Part shown: positions 536-10,494 of the stretch, piece by piece
How positions within the stretch are numbered: position 1 is the first letter of the stretch
How the letters are laid out: every line of letters starts with the position of its first letter
Source: a virus
DNA length: 64,000 nt
Strand: one strand, 5' to 3'
Virus record (IMG/VR): IMGVR_UViG_3300010370_000030
Span: 17,808 to 81,807 of that record
The notes under the pieces: model-generated
Told to the model about the DNA's origin: nothing
Seen by the model: only the letters and a program-made list of their open reading frames with translations
Database searches by the model: none
Made by a program: the position numbers and the translations under genes

Positions 536-1486
536 ATGGCACACATGGTTGAAACAATGGCTTATGCGGGTGAAGTTCCTTGGCACGGTCTTGGTGTTCA
601 GGTTCCAAATGACCTTTCCCCTGCTCAAATGCTGCAAAAAGCTGGTCTTGACTGGCAAGTTCAAAAAGTTCCGGCGTTTTCCAACATTAATGGAACGCCT
701 GTTAATGTTGGTTGGTCGGCTCTTGTTCGTAGCACTGACGATAAAGTCCTGTCTGTCGTATCCACCGACTGGAATCCTGTGCAAAACACAGAGGCTTTTG
801 AGTTTTTTCACGAGTATTGTGCGGCTGGTGACATGGAAATGCACACGGCTGGCTCACTTCGCGGTGGTCAGATCGTATGGGTTCTTGCAAAAATTAAGGA
901 GTCATTTGACCTTTTCAACGGCGATACGGTCGAATCCTTCTTGTTGTTCACAAATCCTCACAAGTTCGGTCAATCCATCGATATTCGCTTCACTCCAATC
1001 CGTGCTGTTTGCAATAACACGCTAACACTTGCACTCAGTCAACAAACGGACCGTATGGTCAAGAAGAGTCACCGTCGTGAATTCAACGCTGCAGAAGTAA
1101 AAGAGCAGCTTGGAATCGCAACTGACAAGCTCGCTAAGTATAAAGAGATGGCCGAGTTCCTTGGTTCGAAGCGTTACACGGGTGAATCTTTGAAAGAGTA
1201 CTTCAACAAGGTTTTCCCCGTCCTTGCATACGACAAGGAAAAAGGTCCTCAGCGTAAAGAGGTTTCAAAATCAGCAGCTCTTGCGCTTGAAGTTGTCGAG
1301 ACACAACCGGGTGCTCGTTTTGCTGAAGGTAGCTGGTGGCAAGCGTTTAACGCTGTCACGTACTTGACCGATCATAAGATTGGTAAGTCGGCTGATAATC
1401 GTTTGACTTCGGCTTGGTTCGGTCCTAACAAAAACCTCAAGGTGAAAGCTCTTGAGACTGCGGTCGAGTTTGCTGAAGCTGCTTGA
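536..1486 (+). CDS. DUF932 / TIGR03299 phage-plasmid protein
   Basis: The protein opens with MAHMVETMAYAGEVPWHGLG, a hallmark of the DUF932 (phage/plasmid-like TIGR03299) family, and is about 316 residues, normal for that family. The biochemical role is unknown; relatives occur in many phages and plasmids. The chosen ATG has a GGAG Shine-Dalgarno six bases upstream, which makes it preferable to an in-frame ATG 12 bases earlier. The stop is followed immediately by a GGAGGT sequence and a strong hairpin leading to the next gene. Confidence 0.85.
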   Translation: MAHMVETMAYAGEVPWHGLGVQVPNDLSPAQMLQKAGLDWQVQKVPAFSNINGTPVNVGWSALVRSTDDKVLSVVSTDWNPVQNTEAFEFFHEYCAAGDMEMHTAGSLRGGQIVWVLAKIKESFDLFNGDTVESFLLFTNPHKFGQSIDIRFTPIRAVCNNTLTLALSQQTDRMVKKSHRREFNAAEVKEQLGIATDKLAKYKEMAEFLGSKRYTGESLKEYFNKVFPVLAYDKEKGPQRKEVSKSAALALEVVETQPGARFAEGSWWQAFNAVTYLTDHKIGKSADNRLTSAWFGPNKNLKVKALETAVEFAEAA

Positions 1487-1487
1487 T

Positions 1488-1514
1488 GGAGGTGGGCCCT
1501 TCGGGGCCCTTTTC
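1488..1514 (+). promoter_or_regulatory. Shine-Dalgarno plus UUCG hairpin before the ketoacyl synthase gene
   Basis: GGAGGT (1488-1493) is a perfect Shine-Dalgarno. It is followed by a 6-bp GGGCCC/GGGCCC hairpin with a TTCG tetraloop (1494-1509), then TTTTC and the ATG at 1515. Unfolded, the SD lies 21 bases from the ATG, too far; folded, only about five bases separate them. Such looping out between SD and start is known for T4 gene 25. The hairpin plus TTTT could also act as an intrinsic terminator. Confidence 0.6.
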
Positions 1515-2471
1515 ATGATATACATTGAAAAATTTTGGTACGAGAATAATTTTAACATAACAGAATTTTTTTCTAAGTTCGAATCTGGTCATGACTATGA
1601 ACCGTCTTGGCCAGCTGTCCTTGTTTCATCGTCGCGAGCCAATTTTGATGCTCACGAAGCAATGATGAACAACTATCGTTCAGGAAAAACAAGGACCAAA
1701 CCATCATTGTGCCTTGCTGGAGGCCTTGAATCTGTTCATGCCGATATTTCTCGGATACTTGGTCTCTCGAACATGACATTCTCTGTCCTGTCAGCATGTA
1801 CTTCTTCAGCATATGCAATATATCAAGCAGGGCTTATCAGTACGCACCAGGGTACTCCTGTTATTGTTGCGTGTGCTGATATGTTCTCTCCTATCGATAT
1901 GCATTGGTTCAATTCACTTGGCGCTGTTTCGCCAGATACAGGTATACCTTTTGATAAAAAAAGTAAGGGTTTCAGACCTAGCAAAGCCCAAGCGATGTTT
2001 GTTGTGTCTGCAAAACCAATCAATCCTGTAGCGCAGATTGAGCAAATGATGTTCATGACTCAACCACAAGAAAAAACAGCCATTGGGGCGCTTGATGAAA
2101 TTGAGAAGATGTTTGATCTTGTTGCAATGAACAACGTTGAATGGTGGAATGCTCATTCACCGGGTACTCCTTTAGGTGACGCAACAGAGTTTGAACTATT
2201 CTCACGCTTCAAACGGGATATACCTATTTCTTCCTTGAAGGGTAGGTTTGGTCACGCCTTAGCAAGCTCTTACCTTCTCGAACTTGGCGGGGCTCTGGAG
2301 GCTGTAATGGCGGGAAAGGTCCCTCAGAACGAAGGAATAACGGAGAAGATTGTTGAGGATGATAGGATCATCACGGAACCGATAAGTATTGGATGGCGGA
2401 AGAGGTTTGTTAAAATGAATATGGGGTTTGGAGGCAAAAACGTCCTGTCTGTTATAAAGGTACTAGTTTAA
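1515..2471 (+). CDS. Beta-ketoacyl-ACP synthase-like (thiolase-fold condensing enzyme)
   Basis: 318-residue protein with the three catalytic elements of FabF/FabB-type condensing enzymes. These are a nucleophilic Cys in SACTSSAYA (Cys95), a first His in HSPGTPLGD (His214, the HGTGTPxGD motif), and Lys242/His247 in LKGRFGHALASS. A GFGGKN glycine motif lies near the C-terminus, and PFDKKSKGFRPSKAQAMFVV matches the family's conserved central block. Family members condense malonyl-ACP with acyl-ACP to extend fatty acids. It is shorter than FabF (about 410 residues). The start was chosen as the ATG just after the hairpin. It overlaps the desaturase by one base (TAATG), so the two are probably translated together. 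The acyl substrate is unknown; a role in membrane lipid remodelling is inferred. Confidence 0.8.
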   Translation: MIYIEKFWYENNFNITEFFSKFESGHDYEPSWPAVLVSSSRANFDAHEAMMNNYRSGKTRTKPSLCLAGGLESVHADISRILGLSNMTFSVLSACTSSAYAIYQAGLISTHQGTPVIVACADMFSPIDMHWFNSLGAVSPDTGIPFDKKSKGFRPSKAQAMFVVSAKPINPVAQIEQMMFMTQPQEKTAIGALDEIEKMFDLVAMNNVEWWNAHSPGTPLGDATEFELFSRFKRDIPISSLKGRFGHALASSYLLELGGALEAVMAGKVPQNEGITEKIVEDDRIITEPISIGWRKRFVKMNMGFGGKNVLSVIKVLV

Positions 2472-3256
2472 TGTTAGAGAAAATTAAAGGTTGGAATAAT
2501 TACTATGCTATCAAAGCAGCACAAGTGTCATGTCTCGTGCTGTTACCAGTTGCAATCACCCTCCTTGTCATCAACTTATCGTGGTTGTATTTGTTTGCAA
2601 CGCTGCTGACTGTTCTGTTGATTTCAAAGGTAGGACATTCAATAGGGCAACATAGGTATTTTAGCCACCGAAGTTTTAAGACGGACACAAAGCGTGAATG
2701 GTTAATGGCTTTTCTTGGTACACTTGGAACAACACATACAGCTGTTCACTATGCAGCACTACATCGGTACCATCATGCCAATAGTGATACCGATTTAGAT
2801 CCACATTGTCCGGAAAAGTTGGGTGTCGTAAAATCTTTCTTTGGATTTATTGATCGTGAAAAAGCAGATAAGATACCATTCCGCATTGTGAAGGATCTTC
2901 TCGCTAATAAGCCCGTGATGTTTTTTTATAATTGGTACTGGCCCACGCTCGTGTTTTACTGGATCGTGCTGATCGCCATCGATCCTTTGTTGTTTGTGTT
3001 CTGTTATGTTATTCCTTGCGGGTTTGTACAGTTCGTTGCAGGCGTACAGTTGAGCCTTGGACATCACAAAGGGTACGTAAACTTCAATACAAAGGACAAA
3101 AGCATAAATAGTAAGATATGGAACGTGTTGACATTAGGCGAAGGTCTGCATAATAATCATCACAACAAGCCTTACGAGTACAATTTTGCATACACACAAA
3201 AACCTGGTGAGTGGGATTTCTGTGGATGGCTTGTTACAAAGTTCCTGAAAGTATAA
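2471..3256 (+). CDS. Membrane fatty-acid desaturase (acyl-lipid/acyl-CoA delta-9 type)
   Basis: 261 residues with all three histidine boxes of membrane di-iron desaturases: HRYFSH (residues 61-66), HRYHH (98-102) followed by the usual DTDLDPH, and HNNHH near residues 227-231. Two hydrophobic stretches (about 20-55 and 150-190) give the expected membrane hairpins. The family inserts a double bond in acyl chains using O2 and an electron donor, typically raising membrane fluidity. It starts within the stop codon of the ketoacyl synthase gene, indicating translational coupling and a joint lipid role. The permuted tmRNA gene begins directly after its stop. No electron-donor domain is fused, so host ferredoxin or cytochrome b5-like donors would be needed (inference). 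Confidence 0.88.
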   Translation: MLEKIKGWNNYYAIKAAQVSCLVLLPVAITLLVINLSWLYLFATLLTVLLISKVGHSIGQHRYFSHRSFKTDTKREWLMAFLGTLGTTHTAVHYAALHRYHHANSDTDLDPHCPEKLGVVKSFFGFIDREKADKIPFRIVKDLLANKPVMFFYNWYWPTLVFYWIVLIAIDPLLFVFCYVIPCGFVQFVAGVQLSLGHHKGYVNFNTKDKSINSKIWNVLTLGEGLHNNHHNKPYEYNFAYTQKPGEWDFCGWLVTKFLKV

Positions 3257-3592
3257 TCGTATGAAGTTGACTGAAAGATGTCTCGGACGGCGGTTCGATT
3301 CCGCCCAGGTCCACCAGAAAACTCTTTGAGTAGCTACACTAGATAAACAGAAAAACTTGCTAAAGTCGACCAAAGCAAGGACCTGCTAGGAAGAAGGGCT
3401 ACCAAGATTTCAAGTATCGCAGAGAGTTTTCTAATGGGCCTGACCTGGTTTCGACGGGGCAATAAGTAGGAAGATGGACGATTCGGCAATGTGAAAGCCG
3501 TAGGGTTGGGACTTCCCGGCCGAAGAAGCAAACGAAGTAAACGCAAACGAAGAACGTTTCGCATTGGCTGCCTAAACACAGCCTAGGGTTTC
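3257..3592 (+). ncRNA. ssrA: Circularly permuted (two-piece) tmRNA gene
   Basis: The acceptor piece comes first. It has a T-arm (3289-3293 with 3301-3305, loop TTCGATT), the 3' acceptor strand CAGGTCC (3306-3312), discriminator A and CCA (3314-3316). The coding piece starts at 3436 with GGGCCTG, which pairs over 7 bp with that strand and places a G.U at the third pair, the alanyl-tRNA synthetase identity element. GGTTTCGACGGGG follows, as in other tmRNAs. The tag frame (3543-3572) encodes ANEERFALAA and ends at TAA 3573-3575, which sits in the loop of a GGCTG/CAGCC stem. The product rescues stalled ribosomes and marks nascent chains for proteolysis. The outer ends of both pieces are approximate. 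Confidence 0.9.
3317..3431 (+). other. Intervening segment of the permuted tmRNA precursor
   Basis: The segment separates the CCA end of the acceptor piece from the coding piece. It is bounded by perfect 9-base inverted repeats, GAAAACTCT (3317-3325) and AGAGTTTTC (3423-3431), which stack next to the acceptor stem. It would be removed during processing to leave the two-piece tmRNA. No open reading frame or tRNA is visible in it. Confidence 0.75.
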
Positions 3593-3623
3593 GGTGGGTT
3601 TCCTCGTAACAGAATAACCCACC
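3593..3623 (+). terminator. Hairpin at the end of the tmRNA gene
   Basis: GGTGGGTT (3593-3600) pairs perfectly with AACCCACC (3616-3623) and is followed by ATTTTAA. It may terminate transcription or mark the 3' end of the coding RNA piece. A closely similar hairpin lies at 3909-3932. Confidence 0.5.
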
Positions 3624-3657
3624 ATTTTAAACACACTCACACACAAAGGAGATAAAC

Positions 3658-3894
3658 ATGAGTGAATCAGCGTTTGGTATTAGACTTGAACTTCTTAAAA
3701 TGGCAAAAGAAATGCTTGAGCATGATTACTTTACCAGGAAAGAAGCGGAGAATCAATTGTGGCATTTCAAATGTGAAATGGCAAAGACAAAAGGTGAAGA
3801 GTTGCCTGAGTTAATGCATATTCCATACCCATCTACAGTAGACATTCTTGCGAAAGCAAAAGAACTTAATCGCTTTATTAGCGACAGGCAGTAA
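3658..3894 (+). CDS. Small conserved phage-type protein of unknown function
   Basis: 78 residues with a strong Shine-Dalgarno (AAAGGAG) eight bases before the ATG. The protein is charged and mostly helical (RLELLKMAKEMLEHDYF) with a C-terminal PYPSTVDILAKAKELNRF block. That layout resembles small helical proteins of T4-like marine phages, but I cannot assign a function. It stands alone between two related hairpins, so it may be a single-gene transcription unit. Confidence 0.6.
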   Translation: MSESAFGIRLELLKMAKEMLEHDYFTRKEAENQLWHFKCEMAKTKGEELPELMHIPYPSTVDILAKAKELNRFISDRQ

Positions 3895-3908
3895 GATATA
3901 AAGGTTTT

Positions 3909-3932
3909 GATGGGTTTCCTTAATAACCCATC
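3909..3932 (+). terminator. Intergenic hairpin, probable terminator
   Basis: GATGGGTT (3909-3916) pairs over 8 bp with AACCCATC (3925-3932), followed by a short T run. It lies between the 78-residue gene and the wall-hydrolase gene. Confidence 0.5.
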
Positions 3933-3950: not shown

Positions 3951-4502
3951 ATGAAAGCAATCCTTGCAGGATTTTTGCTTATCGCCTTTGTTCTACCGCT
4001 ACAAGCGACCATTCATGAATTACCCCTCTTAGTAAATTTTCATGACCTGAGTAAAGAGTCGCAAAAACAAGTTTCTTGTTTAGCAGAGAACATATTTTTT
4101 GAAGCTGCATCAGAATCGACAGCAGGTAAAGTAGCTGTTGCGTTCGTAACAATAAACAGAGTGTTGTCGGGTAGGTTTCCGAACACTCTTTGCGGTGTTG
4201 TCCAACAAAAAATACAAGGTGTGTGTCAGTTTAGTTGGTATTGTGATCCTACTAAGCTACATCGTAGACAAGCAATTAAACATACACCGCTCTACAATGA
4301 TATTCTTCGACTCTCAATCGAAGTGTTGATATATCATAAAGTATTTGAGGACATGACAAAAGGAGCTACATACTTCCATAACACCTCTACTAATCCGAGG
4401 TGGAGATTGCAAAGAACAGCTCAGATAGGGAATCACGTTTTTTATCGTCATGGAAAGGACCGACATGAAATATCAACTAGCAGACAACTTTTTATTCACT
4501 GA
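3951..4502 (+). CDS. SleB-type cell wall hydrolase with signal peptide
   Basis: 183 residues. The first 20 (MKAILAGFLLIAFVLPLQAT) form a signal peptide or signal anchor, so the enzyme can reach the periplasm without a holin. The rest matches the Hydrolase_2/SleB family: a conserved block around AENIFFEAASES with the likely catalytic Glu, TINRVLSGRFPNTLCGVV, VCQFSWYCD, and GATYFHN. Members cleave peptidoglycan as lytic transglycosylases. It is preceded by AAAGGAGG. It is a candidate endolysin for host lysis, distinct from the tail lysozyme at 14449-17262. Its 3' end overlaps the next gene by 38 bases. Confidence 0.8.
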   Translation: MKAILAGFLLIAFVLPLQATIHELPLLVNFHDLSKESQKQVSCLAENIFFEAASESTAGKVAVAFVTINRVLSGRFPNTLCGVVQQKIQGVCQFSWYCDPTKLHRRQAIKHTPLYNDILRLSIEVLIYHKVFEDMTKGATYFHNTSTNPRWRLQRTAQIGNHVFYRHGKDRHEISTSRQLFIH

Positions 4503-5094
4503 TTTTTTCAACACTTTCCGTGAGGGAATGGTTAAAGATTTTTTGGCGGTCTTTCCTAACTTTAGCGATAAGCAGCCGACACCAGAAGAACGGGAGTTGG
4601 ATCCAAAATACAACATGAAGACCGTTGGGCAGTGGAAGACGGCTGGTAATGCTGCAGCAGGTGATGCGTGGAAGGTAGAGGGATTGCGATACACAGATCC
4701 TGGTGTGAACACTCGATCTGCAACCAATCGCGACAAATACCCAACGGCGTGGCAACTAGTTGATCATTTCGATAATCTATATCCAGATGGTGTCGAAGGT
4801 GGTCAAATAGCATGTCCTATTGCTACGTATAGTATAATGGAAGCACATAGTCGTATTGGTAGACACACAGGAATTGAAAATAGGCGCAAGCAATATGTGA
4901 GATGTCATATTCCTTTAATTGTTCCGGAAGGTGATATCGTATTTGAGATCGAGCGCAAAGTGTTTATTACGTGGGACAACGTGTTTGCTTTCGACAATCA
5001 ATGCGAACACAGTGCTTGGAATAATTCCTCGTATAGACGGCTTGTTTTTCTAATCGACCTACATCGCTCAATTGTTAAGTGGCCACCAGCGTGA
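4465..5094 (+). CDS. Asp/Asn hydroxylase-like oxygenase
   Basis: About 209 residues. The C-terminal half has the family layout: RHTGIEN, RCHIPLIVPEGDIVFEIE, then EHSAWNNSSYRRLVFLIDL. The iron site reads H-T-G instead of H-x-D. That is seen in human AspH, which uses only two His ligands, so this copy may be a true AspH-type enzyme. The N-terminal half has no domain I recognise. The start at 4465 is preferred because AAAGGA lies five bases upstream; an alternative ATG is at 4450. It overlaps both neighbours, and the next gene starts inside its stop codon. Confidence 0.75.
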   Translation: MKYQLADNFLFTDFFNTFREGMVKDFLAVFPNFSDKQPTPEERELDPKYNMKTVGQWKTAGNAAAGDAWKVEGLRYTDPGVNTRSATNRDKYPTAWQLVDHFDNLYPDGVEGGQIACPIATYSIMEAHSRIGRHTGIENRRKQYVRCHIPLIVPEGDIVFEIERKVFITWDNVFAFDNQCEHSAWNNSSYRRLVFLIDLHRSIVKWPPA

Positions 5095-5648
5095 ACAGGT
5101 ATCACCACAGGATAAACGTTCCAGTACCATTTGTTTTTCCGAAGTATGAAGTGCCTGATCTTAGATTCCATCTTCATCGTCGGTTTGATAAAAAGGACAT
5201 GAATGTTGAGATCGTAACGTGGATACATTCGCTTGGTTTGTATATCGTTGCTGGTGAATATTTTTACACGCCACCCGGTAGAACGTTGGAACCACATTCG
5301 GATAGTCCGTCAATCAATGACGTCGTTAAACTTAACTGGATGAAGGGTGGCGAAGGGAGTGTAATGGAGTGGTTCAAGCTCAAGGATGGTGCTACACTCA
5401 AGACAAATACAACGGTGATTGGAACCCAATACTCGTTTGCACCTCGTGAGGACTTAATTAAAGTACACGCTGCTACGATAGGTACTCCAAGTCTCGTTAA
5501 TGTCGGTCAAATACACGCTATACAAAACAAAGACCGACCACGTTTCGTTGCATGTTTAGTAATAGCCAAGAATGCGACAAGGAGTAGGGTGACATGGGAC
5601 GAGGCGTTGGACATTTTTGGTCCCTATGTTGACTTTGATAGAAGTTAG
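5091..5648 (+). CDS. Divergent 2OG-Fe(II) oxygenase-like protein
   Basis: About 185 residues. I see a metal-site-like HSD in RTLEPHSDSPS, a distal His in NVGQIHAIQN and a downstream Arg in RPRFVACLVI. These sit in the order and spacing of the double-stranded beta-helix oxygenases. Similarity to the other copies is weak, so the call is tentative. The start is taken as GTG at 5091, where GTGA overlaps the preceding stop (translational coupling); an in-frame GTG at 5079 is possible. The next features downstream are tRNA genes. Confidence 0.55.
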   Translation: MNRYHHRINVPVPFVFPKYEVPDLRFHLHRRFDKKDMNVEIVTWIHSLGLYIVAGEYFYTPPGRTLEPHSDSPSINDVVKLNWMKGGEGSVMEWFKLKDGATLKTNTTVIGTQYSFAPREDLIKVHAATIGTPSLVNVGQIHAIQNKDRPRFVACLVIAKNATRSRVTWDEALDIFGPYVDFDRS

Positions 5649-5683
5649 ATAGATAGTTCCTTTGTTGTTGAAATGATTTATGT

Positions 5684-5760
5684 GCACGTGTGTCGCCGAA
5701 TGGTTAGGCTACGGATTGCAAATCCGTTTTATGCAGGTTCGATCCCTGTCACGTGCTCCA
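5684..5760 (+). tRNA. tRNA-Cys (GCA)
   Basis: Acceptor GCACGTG/CACGTGC, discriminator T and encoded CCA. The anticodon stem ACGGA/TCCGT carries loop TTGCAAA. Confidence 0.93.
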
Positions 5761-5762
5761 GC

Positions 5763-5856
5763 GGAGGTCTTGATGCTATGGCGTGTGCATCCCCGGACTG
5801 TAAATCCGGTCCCTCGTGGTAAACATTCGCGGTTCGAATCCGTGGACCTCCACCAC
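5763..5856 (+). tRNA. tRNA-Tyr (GTA)
   Basis: Acceptor GGAGGTC/GACCTCC, discriminator A and CCA. Anticodon loop CTGTAAA and a long variable arm, as expected for bacterial tRNA-Tyr. Confidence 0.93.
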
Positions 5857-5861
5857 TAATT

Positions 5862-6623
5862 TTGGAATTAAATGTGAAGATTGAGCAGATCGTTAGAGTA
5901 CCTTATACAACACGGCCTACGATGATCAGGAACAACGAAAGTGTCTATAACATAAGTCCTGATCCTGAGTATATCAGGCAGAAAAAACATCAGTTGCTAA
6001 TGTTTGATAATGCGTTGTATGGTGAAACGGAAGATGCAGTAAAGAACGATCTGGTTAGAAGGGCGGCGACATATCTTAGTGTACCAATTACAACAGACAT
6101 TGTTGAATTCTCTTTTAACTTTGAAGAAGATGTAGCGATTCTACATCAAGGTGTGTTGTCAGCAATTTGTTTTTGTTTTCCAAGCTCATGGACACCAGGT
6201 GCAGGGTTAGGTAAATCGCTTAGGGAGTTGCATGCGCCTGTTGCAGATGGTGAGCTGCTTGTAAAGGCTAGTGATAAGATTGCTTCAACAATCTCAGATT
6301 TTAGTCAAGGCAGTTTTAGACGATATGTTTGGACAATAACAAAAGTGCCTTCTGTAAGTAATTATGAGAAGATTACCGAACAGTACAAAGATGAAGATTT
6401 AGATATAAATACACTTTTCATGCGTATTGAAACACAAACAACATTGCCGTTGCCAAATGGTGCGATAGCGTTGTTCTTTGTAAAGGTTGATGTCTTACCG
6501 CTAAAAGACGTATGGTACAGATACAAAAATTTGTTGTTGCAAAGTTTAAGTAGTATGTCTGATAATATCATTCGATATAAAAATTTGGGAGAAATTAGAT
6601 CGTATTTACTCTCTGTGGCGTAA
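5862..6623 (+). CDS. DUF3445 family (haem-dependent oxidative N-demethylase-like)
   Basis: About 253 residues. Two blocks match the DUF3445 family: CFPSSWTPGAGLGKSLRELH plus APVADGELL (the W-x-P...G-x-x-L-x-x-[IL]-H-x-P-V region), and FMRIETQTTLPLPNGAIALF plus the following VLPL (the R-x-E-x-Q-T-L-x-R-L-P region). Characterised relatives are haem proteins that remove N-methyl groups oxidatively; whether this copy is active is unknown. The start is uncertain: a TTG just after tRNA-Tyr or a GTG a few codons on. Its last 15 bases overlap tRNA-Pro, so it looks like a gene inserted in the tRNA island. Confidence 0.7.
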   Translation: MELNVKIEQIVRVPYTTRPTMIRNNESVYNISPDPEYIRQKKHQLLMFDNALYGETEDAVKNDLVRRAATYLSVPITTDIVEFSFNFEEDVAILHQGVLSAICFCFPSSWTPGAGLGKSLRELHAPVADGELLVKASDKIASTISDFSQGSFRRYVWTITKVPSVSNYEKITEQYKDEDLDINTLFMRIETQTTLPLPNGAIALFFVKVDVLPLKDVWYRYKNLLLQSLSSMSDNIIRYKNLGEIRSYLLSVA

Positions 6624-6684
6624 CCTGGCAGCGTTCTACGTTTGGGGCGTAGAGGTCCTGGTTCAAATCCAGGCAGAGAGACCA
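6609..6684 (+). tRNA. tRNA-Pro (TGG)
   Basis: Acceptor CTCTCTG/CAGAGAG, anticodon stem CTACG/CGTAG with loop TTTGGGG, and CCA encoded. The first 15 bases lie inside the preceding coding sequence. Confidence 0.9.
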
Positions 6685-6690
6685 AAAAAA

Positions 6691-6765
6691 GGGCTGATAG
6701 TGATAAGGATAGCACACTGCGTTTGCACCGCAGAAGTCGGGGTTTGAATCCCCGTCGGTCCACCA
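6691..6765 (+). tRNA. tRNA-Ala (TGC)
   Basis: Acceptor GGGCTGA/TCGGTCC has the G3.U70 identity pair. Anticodon stem CTGCG/CGCAG with loop TTTGCAC; CCA encoded. Confidence 0.9.
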
Positions 6766-6771
6766 AGTTTT

Positions 6772-6845
6772 GCCCCTATAGTTAAATGGTATAACAGTTG
6801 ATTTGTAATCATCAATTCCTAGTTCGATTCCAGGTGGGGGCACCA
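6772..6845 (+). tRNA. tRNA-Thr (TGT)
   Basis: Acceptor GCCCCTA/TGGGGGC, D-arm GTTA/TAAC, anticodon loop TTTGTAA and CCA encoded. One mismatch each in the anticodon stem and T stem makes it slightly degenerate. Confidence 0.8.
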
Positions 6846-6939
6846 TATTGAAACACATTAGAATCTGTAAAAAGATTAGGGATGGTACACCGCATGCCTC
6901 TCATTGAAAGCATGTATAGACCTTAGTGTGTTTCAATAT
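6845..6939 (+). ncRNA. Structured RNA candidate between tRNA genes
   Basis: A 13-bp perfect outer helix joins 6845-6857 (ATATTGAAACACA) with 6927-6939 (TGTGTTTCAATAT). It encloses two small hairpins: AATCT/AGATT (6862-6866 with 6873-6877) and CATGC/GCATG (6893-6897 with 6910-6914). That gives a three-way junction. There is no T-arm or CCA, so it is not an intact tRNA, and there is no ORF. Function unknown. Confidence 0.5.
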
Positions 6940-6943
6940 AAAT

Positions 6944-7018
6944 TCCAGTGTAGCTCAGCGGTAGAGCAGTTGACTGTTAATCAATTGGTCGTTGGTTCGA
7001 TCCCAGCCACTGGAGCCA
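6944..7018 (+). tRNA. tRNA-Asn (GTT)
   Basis: Acceptor TCCAGTG/CACTGGA, discriminator G and CCA. Anticodon loop CTGTTAA. Confidence 0.92.
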
Positions 7019-7020
7019 AA

Positions 7021-7097
7021 GCCCTCTTATCCCAATTGGTAGAGGAGACGGTCTTAGAAGCCGTGAAGTCTCAGTTCGAATCTGAGAGAGGGCACCA
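7021..7097 (+). tRNA. tRNA with TAG anticodon (Leu, atypical class I)
   Basis: Acceptor GCCCTCT/AGAGGGC, T-arm CTCAG/CTGAG and CCA encoded. Anticodon stem ACGGT/GCCGT has loop CTTAGAA, so the anticodon is TAG and reads CUA. The variable loop is only five bases (GAAGT), whereas bacterial tRNA-Leu has a long variable arm, so the amino-acid identity is uncertain. Confidence 0.75.
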
Positions 7098-7103
7098 GAT
7101 TTT

Positions 7104-7179
7104 GCGGGTGAAGTGTTTACGGTTACACGTCAGTCTTCCAAACTGAAATAGACGAGTTCGAATCTCGCCTCCCGCTCCA
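7104..7179 (+). tRNA. tRNA-Gly (TCC)
   Basis: Acceptor GCGGGTG/CTCCCGC with one T-T mismatch. Anticodon loop CTTCCAA, T loop TTCGAAT, discriminator T and CCA. Confidence 0.88.
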
Positions 7180-7186
7180 GTTTAAC

Positions 7187-7264
<78 letters not shown>

Positions 7265-7266
7265 CT

Positions 7267-7797
7267 TTAAATAAATGATTTTTTTGAAAAGTTAAAGTTT
7301 AGATTTAGACGTAACGAGTCACATTTATTCCACGCTGTGTGCATTACAAAGGGACTAAAACAAAAAACTTTACCTCGCTCCCATTTGTATGTGGTTTGTT
7401 CAACGGTGATACCCAGATCTCCATCTGGAACGATTAACGGTAAATGTACACGAACATACTCCTCGCCTTCGTCGTATTTGTCAGTATGCCACTGTACAAT
7501 GCCGCCAGGAAGTATTGCGCTGAACCAAATACCTAACAAATGATTTGCTGGGAAGGACTCTATAAAAGGTATCAGGAACTCCGATCTTGCACGACATTTC
7601 TCGTCCCATTGAGGATTGCGTTTTCTGATAAATGAAAACGCACCGACCCACTCTGCAGAGGTACCTTTGTCTTGCTTAGGTGATTTAATGATGTTAAGAT
7701 CACCAACGCCACTATAAATTCTATAGAAATCATTTTCAATTGACACTGCAGCATCTTCAATTTTATTAGTATATAAAAAATTACTGCTGGTATACAT
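7267..7797 (-). CDS. Asp/Asn hydroxylase-like 2OG-Fe(II) oxygenase
   Basis: 176 residues. Clear family motifs: QWHTDKYDEG (HxD iron ligands), YVRVHLPLIVPDGDLGITVE, a GKVFCFSPFVMHTAWN block with the distal His, and LRLNLNFNF with the 2-oxoglutarate Arg. VHLPLIVPDGD closely mirrors CHIPLIVPEGD in the copy at 4465-5094, so these two are near relatives. It is on the minus strand, opposite to the surrounding tRNA genes, and sits six bases downstream of a second minus-strand oxygenase-like gene with which it probably forms an operon. Confidence 0.82.
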   Translation of the reverse strand: MYTSSNFLYTNKIEDAAVSIENDFYRIYSGVGDLNIIKSPKQDKGTSAEWVGAFSFIRKRNPQWDEKCRARSEFLIPFIESFPANHLLGIWFSAILPGGIVQWHTDKYDEGEEYVRVHLPLIVPDGDLGITVEQTTYKWERGKVFCFSPFVMHTAWNKCDSLRLNLNFNFSKKSFI

Positions 7798-7803
7798 TCC
7801 CTA

Positions 7804-8331
7804 TCAGCTCCTCAAACTAATAATAACTTCATCTGAATTCCCATGATTAATAATGTCATGGAAAGTTGTCGGATTAACAACGACAGGCTTGTTACATTGC
7901 ATGCTGAAAATAACATCAGCGTCATTTCTTGATAGACCAACAATATCAAATCCTGATGCAGATTTTATTGTCTTTGTTTGACGGTTCGATTTAGGTACGT
8001 ACCAGCTCATATAAACGTTGTCGCATTTTGTAATCGGTATGTTGATCGCGGCAGGAGTGAGAACACCTTTTGCATCACGGTCGATATGTATAGCCGACAT
8101 TTGCTTCGGTTTAAGGCAAGCAACGGTTACAAAATTTATGAGCACGTTATGAACATGATTGTTCTCATCTATATTTAATACTTTGAAGATTTGTTGGCGT
8201 TGCTCACGGTTGAATGTTGATATGGGGAATGTTTTGTCAAAAAGACGATCATAGTGTACAATATCTATAACTACCTTCTCAAGGAGAGGAGCATTATATG
8301 TTAAGTTGATCACATCGGCAAAATAAGTCAT
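7804..8331 (-). CDS. 2OG-Fe(II) oxygenase-like protein
   Basis: 175 residues. MSAIHIDRDAKG has an HxD motif followed by INIPITKCDN, the usual next strand. The C-terminus FHDIINHGNSDEVIISLRS has the His-x4-N...R pattern typical of the distal metal His and 2-oxoglutarate Arg. Similar arrangements occur in several short phage hydroxylase-like proteins. It is the first gene of a two-gene minus-strand unit. A GATAAATA box lies 27 bases upstream of its start, so it may be a late gene. Confidence 0.65.
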   Translation of the reverse strand: MTYFADVINLTYNAPLLEKVVIDIVHYDRLFDKTFPISTFNREQRQQIFKVLNIDENNHVHNVLINFVTVACLKPKQMSAIHIDRDAKGVLTPAAINIPITKCDNVYMSWYVPKSNRQTKTIKSASGFDIVGLSRNDADVIFSMQCNKPVVVNPTTFHDIINHGNSDEVIISLRS

Positions 8332-8357
8332 TGTAAATACAAGTATTGCAAAGAAAT

Positions 8358-8365
8358 TATTTATC
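8358..8365 (-). promoter_or_regulatory. Possible T4-type late promoter box (GATAAATA), minus strand
   Basis: Read on the minus strand, GATAAATA lies 27 bases before the start of the 7804-8331 gene. It differs from the T4 late consensus TATAAATA at one position and touches the first base of tRNA-Trp. Confidence 0.35.
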
Positions 8366-8439
8366 TCGGTGTAGTGTTAATGGCAGCACGTGGATCTCCA
8401 AAATCTAAAGATGCGGTTCGAGTCCGTACACCGAGGCCA
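8365..8439 (+). tRNA. tRNA-Trp (CCA)
   Basis: Acceptor CTCGGTG/CACCGAG, discriminator G and CCA. Anticodon stem TGGAT/ATCTA with loop CTCCAAA. Confidence 0.9.
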
Positions 8440-8453
8440 CAACGAGGAAGATT

Positions 8454-9083
8454 ATGTCTCATATTGATCATTTAAAAGCTGCGTCACGTACCAAGCACTT
8501 AAACGTTCGTCGCAATGAACAAGTTCCATATCAATCGCATTTTATAATCCCACGTGAGTTTGTTCGTTTGGATCCATGGGAAATTCAATATCTTTATGCG
8601 CTGAGTGAAAATGTATCAGAAGGCATTGTTGAGGTGGGTCGATATAAAGGTGGATCAACGCTGTTGTTCTCTCTAGCTAACACAAAAGTACCGATTCACA
8701 GTATTGATAATGCACCACAAGATGATGATTATTTGCGCACACTTATGCATACATTAGGCGTAGGTAAAAACGTTAACATTATTGTCGGTGACTCTCAAAA
8801 TACAAAATATAGCAGTATCGGTAATTACGATCTATTGTTTATAGATGGTGATCATTCGTATCAAGGATGTCTAAATGATTTGAATAACTGGTGGGAGCAA
8901 CTTTCACGCGGTGGACACCTCGTTTGCCACGATTGTTACTACCTTCCTGTTCAAAACGCTGTACATGATTTTATTAACTCTCCTCATGTTAAAGAAAGCG
9001 TTCTAATACACGTAACATACAAAGTCCCAGCAAAACACAAACTTATCCCGACAGGATCCCTATGTCATTTTCAAAAAATTTAG
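8454..9083 (+). CDS. Class I SAM-dependent methyltransferase (Methyltransf_24 type)
   Basis: 209 residues. SAM-binding motif I reads EVGRYKGGS (about residues 60-68), the ribose-binding acidic residue is in HSID, and LLFIDGDHSYQG (about 128-138) is the motif typical of the Methyltransf_24 group. GGHLVCHDCYY follows as the strand 5 to 6 region. Members methylate sugars, small molecules or proteins; the substrate is unknown. A GAGGA Shine-Dalgarno precedes the ATG. It is followed by the radical SAM gene in the same direction, suggesting a joint modification pathway. Confidence 0.8.
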   Translation: MSHIDHLKAASRTKHLNVRRNEQVPYQSHFIIPREFVRLDPWEIQYLYALSENVSEGIVEVGRYKGGSTLLFSLANTKVPIHSIDNAPQDDDYLRTLMHTLGVGKNVNIIVGDSQNTKYSSIGNYDLLFIDGDHSYQGCLNDLNNWWEQLSRGGHLVCHDCYYLPVQNAVHDFINSPHVKESVLIHVTYKVPAKHKLIPTGSLCHFQKI

Positions 9084-9134
9084 TCATCTTACCAGTATCA
9101 TTGATAATGACCAAAAATTATAAAGGAGTTGCTC

Positions 9135-9980
9135 GTGCCATTACCATTGGTAAAAATTAAGAATATTATTCATAATAGTGAAGGGGACCCACTTCTTGGA
9201 TTGACTGCTGTCGAGATTAATCCAACCGAATTATGCAACAGGACCTGTGCATTTTGTCCTCGTGTTGATCCGAACGTATATCCAAATCAAAACCTTCACA
9301 TAACACGAAATACTGTCTCAGCCGTTGTAGATGATCTATACAAAAACAATTATAAAGGTCGGCTTGTTTTCTCTGGTTTTGGTGAACCTACTCTAAACAA
9401 AGATATCCTCAATCTAATATCGATAGCAAAAGGTAGAATAGATGATATACAGCTATACACAAACGGCGATAAGATCTTAAATGATGATTGGTACACTCTA
9501 GATGAATTTTTTGCAGCTGGTGTATCAGGCATGTTTATTGACGTGTATGACGATGAAGTACAGATGAAGAAGTGGCAGAAAAAGATTGAGAGGTACAACT
9601 TTCCTATTCATCTTTCAGCCAAATATAAATTCCCCATCAATATTTTTACGAACCGAGCTGGTACCGTAAAGACAAAAGGTGTACCGCAAGATGTGTTTGC
9701 AGAGCGTTGCTTTCTGCCACATACAAAAGCGTTTGTTGATTGGGATGGAAGTATTTTGTTATGCTGTAACGATTGGGCGCGCGCCGCCGGCAGATTCGGT
9801 AACGTTAACGAGACCCCTTTTCATAAATTATGGCTGGCACCTGAGCTTAATGCTATAAGGAAGAGATTGATTGCAGGAAGTCGAGCAAACGCTGGCAGTC
9901 CATGCAATGTGTGTAATGCTGTTGGTAATCAGAAGCTCTCTGCCGAAGTACGTCAGGTTTGGCATAATGCGCTTAATTGA
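9135..9980 (+). CDS. Radical SAM enzyme with SPASM-like C-terminus
   Basis: About 281 residues. The radical SAM cluster motif C-x3-C-x2-C is at residues 34-41 (CNRTCAFC), followed by FSGFGEPTL, the GGE-equivalent motif. The C-terminal part has additional cysteines (ERCFLPHTKAF, ILLCCNDW, GSPCNVCN) in a SPASM arrangement that would bind auxiliary Fe-S clusters. Such enzymes make radical-based changes in peptides, sugars or cofactors. The start is taken as GTG at 9135, with AAAGGAG six bases upstream; a TTG at 9129 would touch the SD. The last 14 bases overlap the next oxygenase-like gene. Confidence 0.85.
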   Translation: MPLPLVKIKNIIHNSEGDPLLGLTAVEINPTELCNRTCAFCPRVDPNVYPNQNLHITRNTVSAVVDDLYKNNYKGRLVFSGFGEPTLNKDILNLISIAKGRIDDIQLYTNGDKILNDDWYTLDEFFAAGVSGMFIDVYDDEVQMKKWQKKIERYNFPIHLSAKYKFPINIFTNRAGTVKTKGVPQDVFAERCFLPHTKAFVDWDGSILLCCNDWARAAGRFGNVNETPFHKLWLAPELNAIRKRLIAGSRANAGSPCNVCNAVGNQKLSAEVRQVWHNALN

Positions 9981-10494
9981 AGTATTGTCAAAAAGAAACG
10001 ACATTACTCCTTTCATACAAGAGGTGCTTGCACCGCAGGTACAATCGTTATGGCAGAGCTATGGAAAATCTTTTTACGCGTTCCGTCACACAGAGTCCAT
10101 TCGGTTGTTGGGACCGTTTGAACAGGACGGTGCTGTTATAATGGAGAATGTACTTAGAAACAATACAGAGATCGTTGATTTGACCAATGGCCTTTTTCCA
10201 AAAACTGTTGACTGGCTTCAAACAAATTTTGTATCATTGCAAAGAGCTGCTTTAATAAAGCTGTACCCTTTTAAAGATGTTTCCCTTCATGTTGATCGAG
10301 GTGATTATTTTGATAAAACTAAACGTTTTCACTTATGCTTGAAAGGGTCGTACCGATATTTTGTCGGTGAAGAAAGTTTAGATGTTGTACCTGGAATGTT
10401 ATTTACATTTAGGAATGATGTAAAACACGGAACACAAAATTTGAACGGAGAAGATCGAATAACTCTTATGTTTGATGTTCTAAAGCCTCTGTAG
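9967..10494 (+). CDS. Asp/Asn hydroxylase-like 2OG-Fe(II) oxygenase
   Basis: About 175 residues. HVDRGDYFDKTKRFHLCLKG gives the HxD iron motif and the next strand, YFVGEESLDVVPGMLFTF is the central sheet, and KHGTQNLNGEDRITLMFDV supplies the distal His and the Arg. The ATG at 9967 overlaps the radical SAM stop region and gives a family-sized protein; an upstream in-frame ATG at 9871 would run 110 bases into the neighbour. Its last 10 bases overlap the following tRNA. Proximity to the radical SAM and methyltransferase genes suggests a shared substrate (inference). Confidence 0.8.
   Translation: MRLIEVLSKRNDITPFIQEVLAPQVQSLWQSYGKSFYAFRHTESIRLLGPFEQDGAVIMENVLRNNTEIVDLTNGLFPKTVDWLQTNFVSLQRAALIKLYPFKDVSLHVDRGDYFDKTKRFHLCLKGSYRYFVGEESLDVVPGMLFTFRNDVKHGTQNLNGEDRITLMFDVLKPL

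Follow-up and report, generated by a model that had tools for sequence, protein, structure and literature searches.

A complete circularly permuted tmRNA gene of betaproteobacterial type in a T4-like phage lineage

The stretch of DNA analysed here (the window, 64,000 nucleotides) comprises bases 17808-81807 of an 81,807-base (81.8-kb) virus record. Its proteins are T4-like, with baseplate, head-closure, single-strand-DNA-binding and helicase-loader proteins, and it also carries 13 tRNA genes. Between genes for a fatty acid desaturase and a cell wall hydrolase, window positions 3255-3623 (plus strand) hold a complete circularly permuted tmRNA gene (Table 1). The Rfam model RF04321 (tmRNA_permuted) matches window 3255-3575 (+) with 122.7 bits (E 1.8e-23, cut-off 47), and RF01850 (beta_tmRNA) matches 3203-3629 with 106.5 bits (cut-off 84). 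Independently of Rfam, ARAGORN places a permuted tmRNA at window 3224-3666 and reads its tag as ANEERFALAA. A preliminary description, made from the letters alone, had proposed a permuted two-piece phage tmRNA here. With both covariance models above their cut-offs and ARAGORN in agreement, that identity is borne out, and the gene is of betaproteobacterial type. The anatomy it had listed (a CCA end, a 7-bp acceptor stem with G3-U, the motif GGTTTCGACGGGG, a tag with its stop, and an inverted repeat) was found in full in the sequence. Its placement of the locus also holds, but its limits of 3257-3592 are too narrow, as P2a begins at 3255 and the 3' hairpin runs to 3623.

In the gene the acceptor piece precedes the coding piece, and the acceptor stem, with G3438-U3310 as its G3-U70 pair, is formed only across the spacer, between the two pieces. 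The spacer is bounded by a 9-base inverted repeat, AGAAAACTC (3316-3324) and GAGTTTTCT (3424-3432), which RNAfold draws as a stem of 12-13 bp stacked onto the acceptor stem. The acceptor stem with its loop (3306-3442) folds at -44.8 kcal/mol (z -5.2), and 0 of 200 shuffles folded as well. Within the coding piece the resume codon lies at 3543, and the tag (3543-3572) has a hydrophobic AA-COOH tail and a stop (3573-3575) inside the P5 loop, the stem of which is GGCUG/CAGCC (3566-3570/3579-3583). The extra hairpin of the PK1 region is present in about one third of the phage alleles and makes the coding piece some 22 nt longer. The 3' hairpin (GGTGGGTTTCCTCGTAACAGAATAACCCACC, 3593-3623) resembles a hairpin past the next small ORF (GATGGGTTTCCTTAATAACCCATC, approximately 3907-3932), a likeness that may reflect a shared terminator or a duplicated element.

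Table 1. Features of the permuted tmRNA gene and its neighbours, in window coordinates
Feature	Position	Strand	Basis and remarks
Fatty acid desaturase gene	2471..3256	+	Pfam; stop codon overlaps tmRNA start
Acceptor (3' tRNA-like) piece, CCA-ended	3255..3316	+	Rfam, ARAGORN; length fixed across relatives; exact 5' end inferred
T arm GGCGG-TTCGATT-CCGCC	3289..3305	+	Stem paired in 115/115 cells, 18 double changes
Acceptor stem, 3' strand CAGGUCC	3306..3312	+	Pairs with 3436-3442; 161/161 cells paired, 11 double changes
CCA terminus of acceptor piece	3314-3316	+	Sequence
Spacer (intervening segment), 119 nt	3317..3435	+	Closed by 12-bp stem 3317-3328/3420-3431; fold, cassette behaviour
Coding piece (5' tRNA-like and mRNA-like)	3436..3623	+	Rfam, sequence; 3' end inferred from last conserved hairpin
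Acceptor stem, 5' strand GGGCCUG	3436-3442	+	7 bp with 3306-3312
P2c, 3' strand	3456..3460	+	Partner 3280-3284 in acceptor piece; 115/115 cells paired, 7 double changes
P2a, 3' strand	3478..3483	+	Partner 3255-3260 in acceptor piece; 138/138 cells paired, 29 double changes
Extra 8-bp hairpin, PK1 region, GGUUGGGA-CU-UCCCGGCC	3504..3521	+	92% of cells paired in the 8 alleles having it, 4 double changes
Tag frame ANEERFALAA and stop	3543..3575	+	ARAGORN; pN/pS 0.067, 12 distinct tag sequences
3' hairpin GGUGGGUU ... AACCCACC	3593..3623	+	84% of cells paired, 10 double changes
Cell wall hydrolase gene (PF07486), conserved neighbour	3951..4502	+	Pfam

Relatives were sought by scanning viral contigs for baseplate relatives and, separately, for the tag, and were checked with ARAGORN and, for 15 loci, with Rfam. 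More than 40 further viral contigs were found to carry permuted tmRNAs of the window's type. A viral pattern scan (CCACCA, 115-145 nt, GGTTTCGAC) returned mostly chance matches; of the loci inspected among the matches listed, L086, L097, L109, L128 and L163 were accepted as genuine permuted tmRNAs. For covariation, 23 distinct phage sequences from the window's clade were aligned; as they are related to one another, the counts are of cells and not of events. The acceptor stem, T stem, P2a and P2c are fully paired in these sequences despite many double changes; when the partners were slid by 1-3 columns as a control, pairing fell to 14-68%. The alanine identity pair G3-U70 is invariant. Three of these helices (the acceptor stem, P2a and P2c) each draw one strand from either piece, and their pairing thus gives direct evidence of joint function. 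The P5 stem is paired in 64% of cells, with 14 double changes. P2b, the middle helix, is not supported in the form drawn by Rfam, with 53% of its cells paired, though two of its pairs covary. As to the tag, 12 distinct DNA sequences encode only ANDERFALAA, ANEERFALAA or ANEDRFALAA, with a pN/pS of 0.067 that is biased downwards because the pattern fetching most of the contigs fixed part of the tag, although it left silent positions open. The tag peptide is under purifying selection.

The distinct sequences group in a single clade made up of phage tmRNAs only (98/97 in one analysis; 95/85 in another, which included 47 permuted tmRNAs from bacteria and 8 of the one-piece form), and this clade sits beside the betaproteobacterial permuted tmRNAs. 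No nesting of the window's sequence among the 47 bacterial permuted tmRNAs was found, and the true host may be unsampled; in the Bordetella order (Burkholderiales) only 16 of 399 sampled genomes have a permuted tmRNA. Wherever a relative of the hydrolase gene is detectable in contigs of the clade, it lies downstream of the tmRNA on the same strand, often within less than 200 bp, and the helicase-loader and single-strand-DNA-binding genes, where found, come after it. The preliminary description had supposed acquisition from a host of a group with permuted tmRNAs, and this goes further than the phage-only clade and the conserved place in a T4-like genome allow; because of these two features, any capture from a host would be old. 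We regard the tmRNA as an old resident of a T4-like phage group, as judged from phylogeny and synteny, and any capture would have been an old event that could have run in either direction.

The tag was tried as a marker of the host and rejected. An exact 20-mer matched no bacterial genome, and a degenerate ANEERF pattern led to nine contigs, from Burkholderiales where named to that level; ARAGORN reads the ANEERFALAA tmRNAs of these contigs as one-piece, and the tag therefore does not name the host.

On the other side of the tmRNA, the desaturase is shared with one relative, L209, in which a viral homologue (68% identical) adjoins the tmRNA. Ketoacyl-synthase-like and fatty acid desaturase genes lie adjacent at window 1452-3256, just upstream of the tmRNA, and are also seen in L209/L291; they may possibly constitute a lipid-modifying module. 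A pattern search for a viral relative of the ketosynthase gene found none. Window positions 4450-10494 contain, among tRNA genes, several Asp/Arg beta-hydroxylase-like genes (PF05118) as well as genes for a HODM_asu-like protein, a radical SAM/SPASM protein and a methyltransferase.

These data bear upon the possibility that the gene is a passenger, a copy of a host ssrA taken up through imprecise excision or remaining from an attachment site, and with no phage function. Genes for tmRNA are common integration sites of islands and prophages (PMC11915505, PMC9004378), and some of the viral contigs studied here do carry host-like one-piece tmRNAs. Against a relic stand the complete structure with its many compensatory changes, the purifying selection on the tag, the phage-only clade and the conserved position in T4-like genomes, and we hold this explanation to be very improbable. 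The gene is maintained.

Phage-encoded permuted tmRNAs are a known kind. Two-piece tmRNAs of methylophage Melnitz and of many aquatic phages were reported by Buchholz et al. (2022), who counted 53 two-piece forms among 133 unique phage tmRNAs (PMC9004378). A 2025 paper on a tmRNA database lists 79 bacteriophage sequences and also mentions isolated cases of odd spacers, one with a tRNA-Ala gene and one with a repeat (PMC11915505). Given these 53 of 133, the more than 40 contigs found here and the cases in gammaproteobacterial phages, the statement in the preliminary description that phage tmRNAs are rare was too strong. The Melnitz tmRNA (from a methylophage of OM43) is likewise a complete permuted gene in a T4-like myophage without SmpB, and is common but not universal in its group. 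It is, however, alphaproteobacterial (SAR11-like), and its authors connected it with a glutamine riboswitch (PMC9004378), whereas the tmRNA of the window is of betaproteobacterial type, has the hydrolase gene as its neighbour and shows no match to a riboswitch in Rfam. The betaproteobacterial permuted tmRNAs (RF01850; Cupriavidus and others) have the same gene order, two-piece tRNA-like domain and tag type, AN[DE]ERFALAA, and their spacer is also closed by a stem. The tmRNAs of the mycobacteriophages (Bxz1 and Wildcat group) and Bacillus phage G are phage-borne and complete, as here, but differ in being one-piece, with standard gene order and no spacer (PMC4131195). Neither the fixation of a beta-type lineage in T4-like phages nor an exchange of spacers was found described in the literature searched, which was thin on subscription papers. 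What the present analysis adds is the phage-only clade at a conserved place, unannotated permuted tmRNAs in isolated phages, and the cassette behaviour of the spacer.

In many relatives the acceptor piece is immediately preceded by a near-perfect sigma-70 promoter (12/12 in L260 and L282; 11/12 in L225, L226, L246 and L280), which points to transcription by the host polymerase. In the window and in the desaturase-linked L209 the promoter before the acceptor piece reaches only 8/12, and since a close promoter is absent, read-through from the desaturase operon is probable in these two. A promoter-like site of 11/12 at 3128-3157 is weak evidence, three sites having been found against 2.0 expected. 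No SmpB gene was found in five partial phage records, and host SmpB is therefore assumed.

We propose that one precursor RNA would be transcribed during infection, that host RNase P would cut it at G3436, that host RNase III and/or nucleases acting on tRNA 3' ends would cut at the spacer stem, and that this host processing would remove 3317-3435 to give two base-paired pieces. The tmRNA would then be charged with alanine and, using host SmpB and EF-Tu, would free ribosomes stalled on broken mRNAs in infection, and proteins given the ANEERFALAA tag would be degraded by host proteases of the ClpXP type. The proposal of the preliminary description, that host ribosomes are rescued or redirected, is plausible. 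Of the possible roles, rescue of ribosomes in the infected cell, aided by the SmpB of the host, is the most likely, and we consider it highly probable that the window encodes a functional permuted tmRNA which belongs stably to a T4-like phage lineage and rescues ribosomes via host factors. The host may already carry a working tmRNA, which counts against this explanation, as do the lack of an SmpB gene in the five partial records, the lack of a close promoter in the window and the unsupported form of P2b. As suggested for Melnitz, the RNA could instead redirect the host system, either as a decoy for host tmRNA or by selective tagging and recycling of host proteins. Its anatomy is the same as that of a working tmRNA, and inhibition of host tmRNA has been reported for a phage RNA of the DS6A type, which is tmRNA-like but consists of the TLD only (PMC4131195, PMC11915505). 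A decoy needs no conserved degradation tag, yet both tag and stop are conserved here, and selective tagging of host proteins is without a known mechanism; redirection is thus unlikely.

The phage tmRNAs differ from the betaproteobacterial ones in forming their own clade, in having the PK1 hairpin in some members, and in their longer, exchangeable spacers: 39-194 nt in the window's clade against 24-76 nt in sampled bacterial permuted tmRNAs, a few odd or element-borne cases being set aside. Spacers of the further tmRNAs examined, whether phage or phage-like, measure 4-132 nt. Between the window and L282, identity is 94% in the body and 38% in the spacer, and L246, L230 and L241 combine bodies 97-98% identical with unrelated spacers. 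Conversely, near-identical spacers (98%) occur between bodies only 73-80% identical, as in the window and L231 (98% and 73%). Body identity in these comparisons counts gaps and is lowered by the extra PK1 hairpin. A 24-base spacer probe matched 13 viral contigs. Twelve of these contain the whole spacer, with 115-117 of 119 positions identical to that of the window; their acceptor pieces are identical at 56-62 of 66 positions and the starts of their coding pieces at 39-48 of 49, and farther upstream they are unrelated. The tags among these contigs include ANEERFALAA, ANDEQFALAA and ANESVFDVALAA. In such comparisons the spacer behaves as an exchangeable cassette, for which homologous recombination at the conserved tRNA-like ends is the simplest account. 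Because the spacer would be discarded and no ligation would be needed, changes in it would be tolerated; it would be free to vary, and phages could swap it by recombination between the flanking ends. Intervening sequences of bacterial 23S rRNA are hairpin-closed, excised without religation, variable, exchanged and sometimes furnished with a small ORF, and the phage tmRNA spacer may be likened to them, in a different RNA.

Open reading frames were found in the spacers of L230 (67 aa), L086 (39 aa) and L128 (35 aa), the last two ending at the conserved TGA that precedes G1. All three are longer than in shuffles (p <0.04, uncorrected over 29 spacers), and none has a significant match to a Pfam or PHROG family. 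Most of the 29 spacers, that of the window included, have no ORF beyond chance, and the window's spacer matched neither an Rfam family nor anything in the phage collection. The spacer might itself be functional, either by forming a stable small RNA or by housing tiny genes, the permuted form being kept since maturation releases it. Such a function would fit the three ORFs, the fold of the window's spacer alone (better than shuffles, z -2.5) and the 97-98% spacer identity over alleles with three tags, in several of which the flanking pieces differ more. Spacers are nevertheless mostly unrelated and without a recognised family, and recent recombination at conserved flanks gives high identity without function, which leaves a functional spacer improbable. 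A broader version, in which the spacer is a niche for hairpin RNAs and tiny genes that are swapped between phages and released at tmRNA maturation, would have the permuted form favoured in phages as one transcript yielding two products, and in that case the betaproteobacterial form may owe its spread, or even its origin, to phages; we offer this only as a speculation, itself rather doubtful. The exchangeable spacer does make it testable why two pieces are kept and whether maturation releases a second useful RNA.

Permuted tmRNAs above the Rfam cut-off were also found in the isolated Stenotrophomonas phages DLP_6 and BUCTxx99, Xanthomonas phages X1 and Rb1, and Pseudomonas aeruginosa phage SM1, and in the records inspected no annotated feature lies under them. 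Stenotrophomonas, Xanthomonas and Pseudomonas hosts carry a one-piece tmRNA. The permuted tmRNA is here a gene that a broad lineage of T4-like phages keeps stably and under selection, and together with these gammaproteobacterial-phage cases it suggests that phages favour the permuted form whatever the form of the host. In DLP_6, BUCTxx99, X1, Rb1 and SM1, phage trans-translation is open to test at the bench.

Both forms were also met within bacterial genomes. Genome G461, from Burkholderiales, combines a one-piece tmRNA of its own with a permuted one that has the tag ANDAHFKVAAHA and a 131-nt spacer (L363 8232-8689); the latter sits in an array of 43 tRNAs in which a GOLLD RNA is also found, and this array is probably a phage or other mobile element. 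In G828 a one-piece and a permuted tmRNA lie side by side (L367 5747-6116 and 6399-6730), with the tags ANDEKYALAA and ANDENFAMAA, and G213 is a further bacterial genome with both. A permuted call in G308 (L365 8311-8671, minus strand) has a spacer of 5 nt and a 29-residue tag, GNQPSNLQVMQQFDVPTPANGDQYLNVA, and a normal one-piece tmRNA is present elsewhere in that genome.
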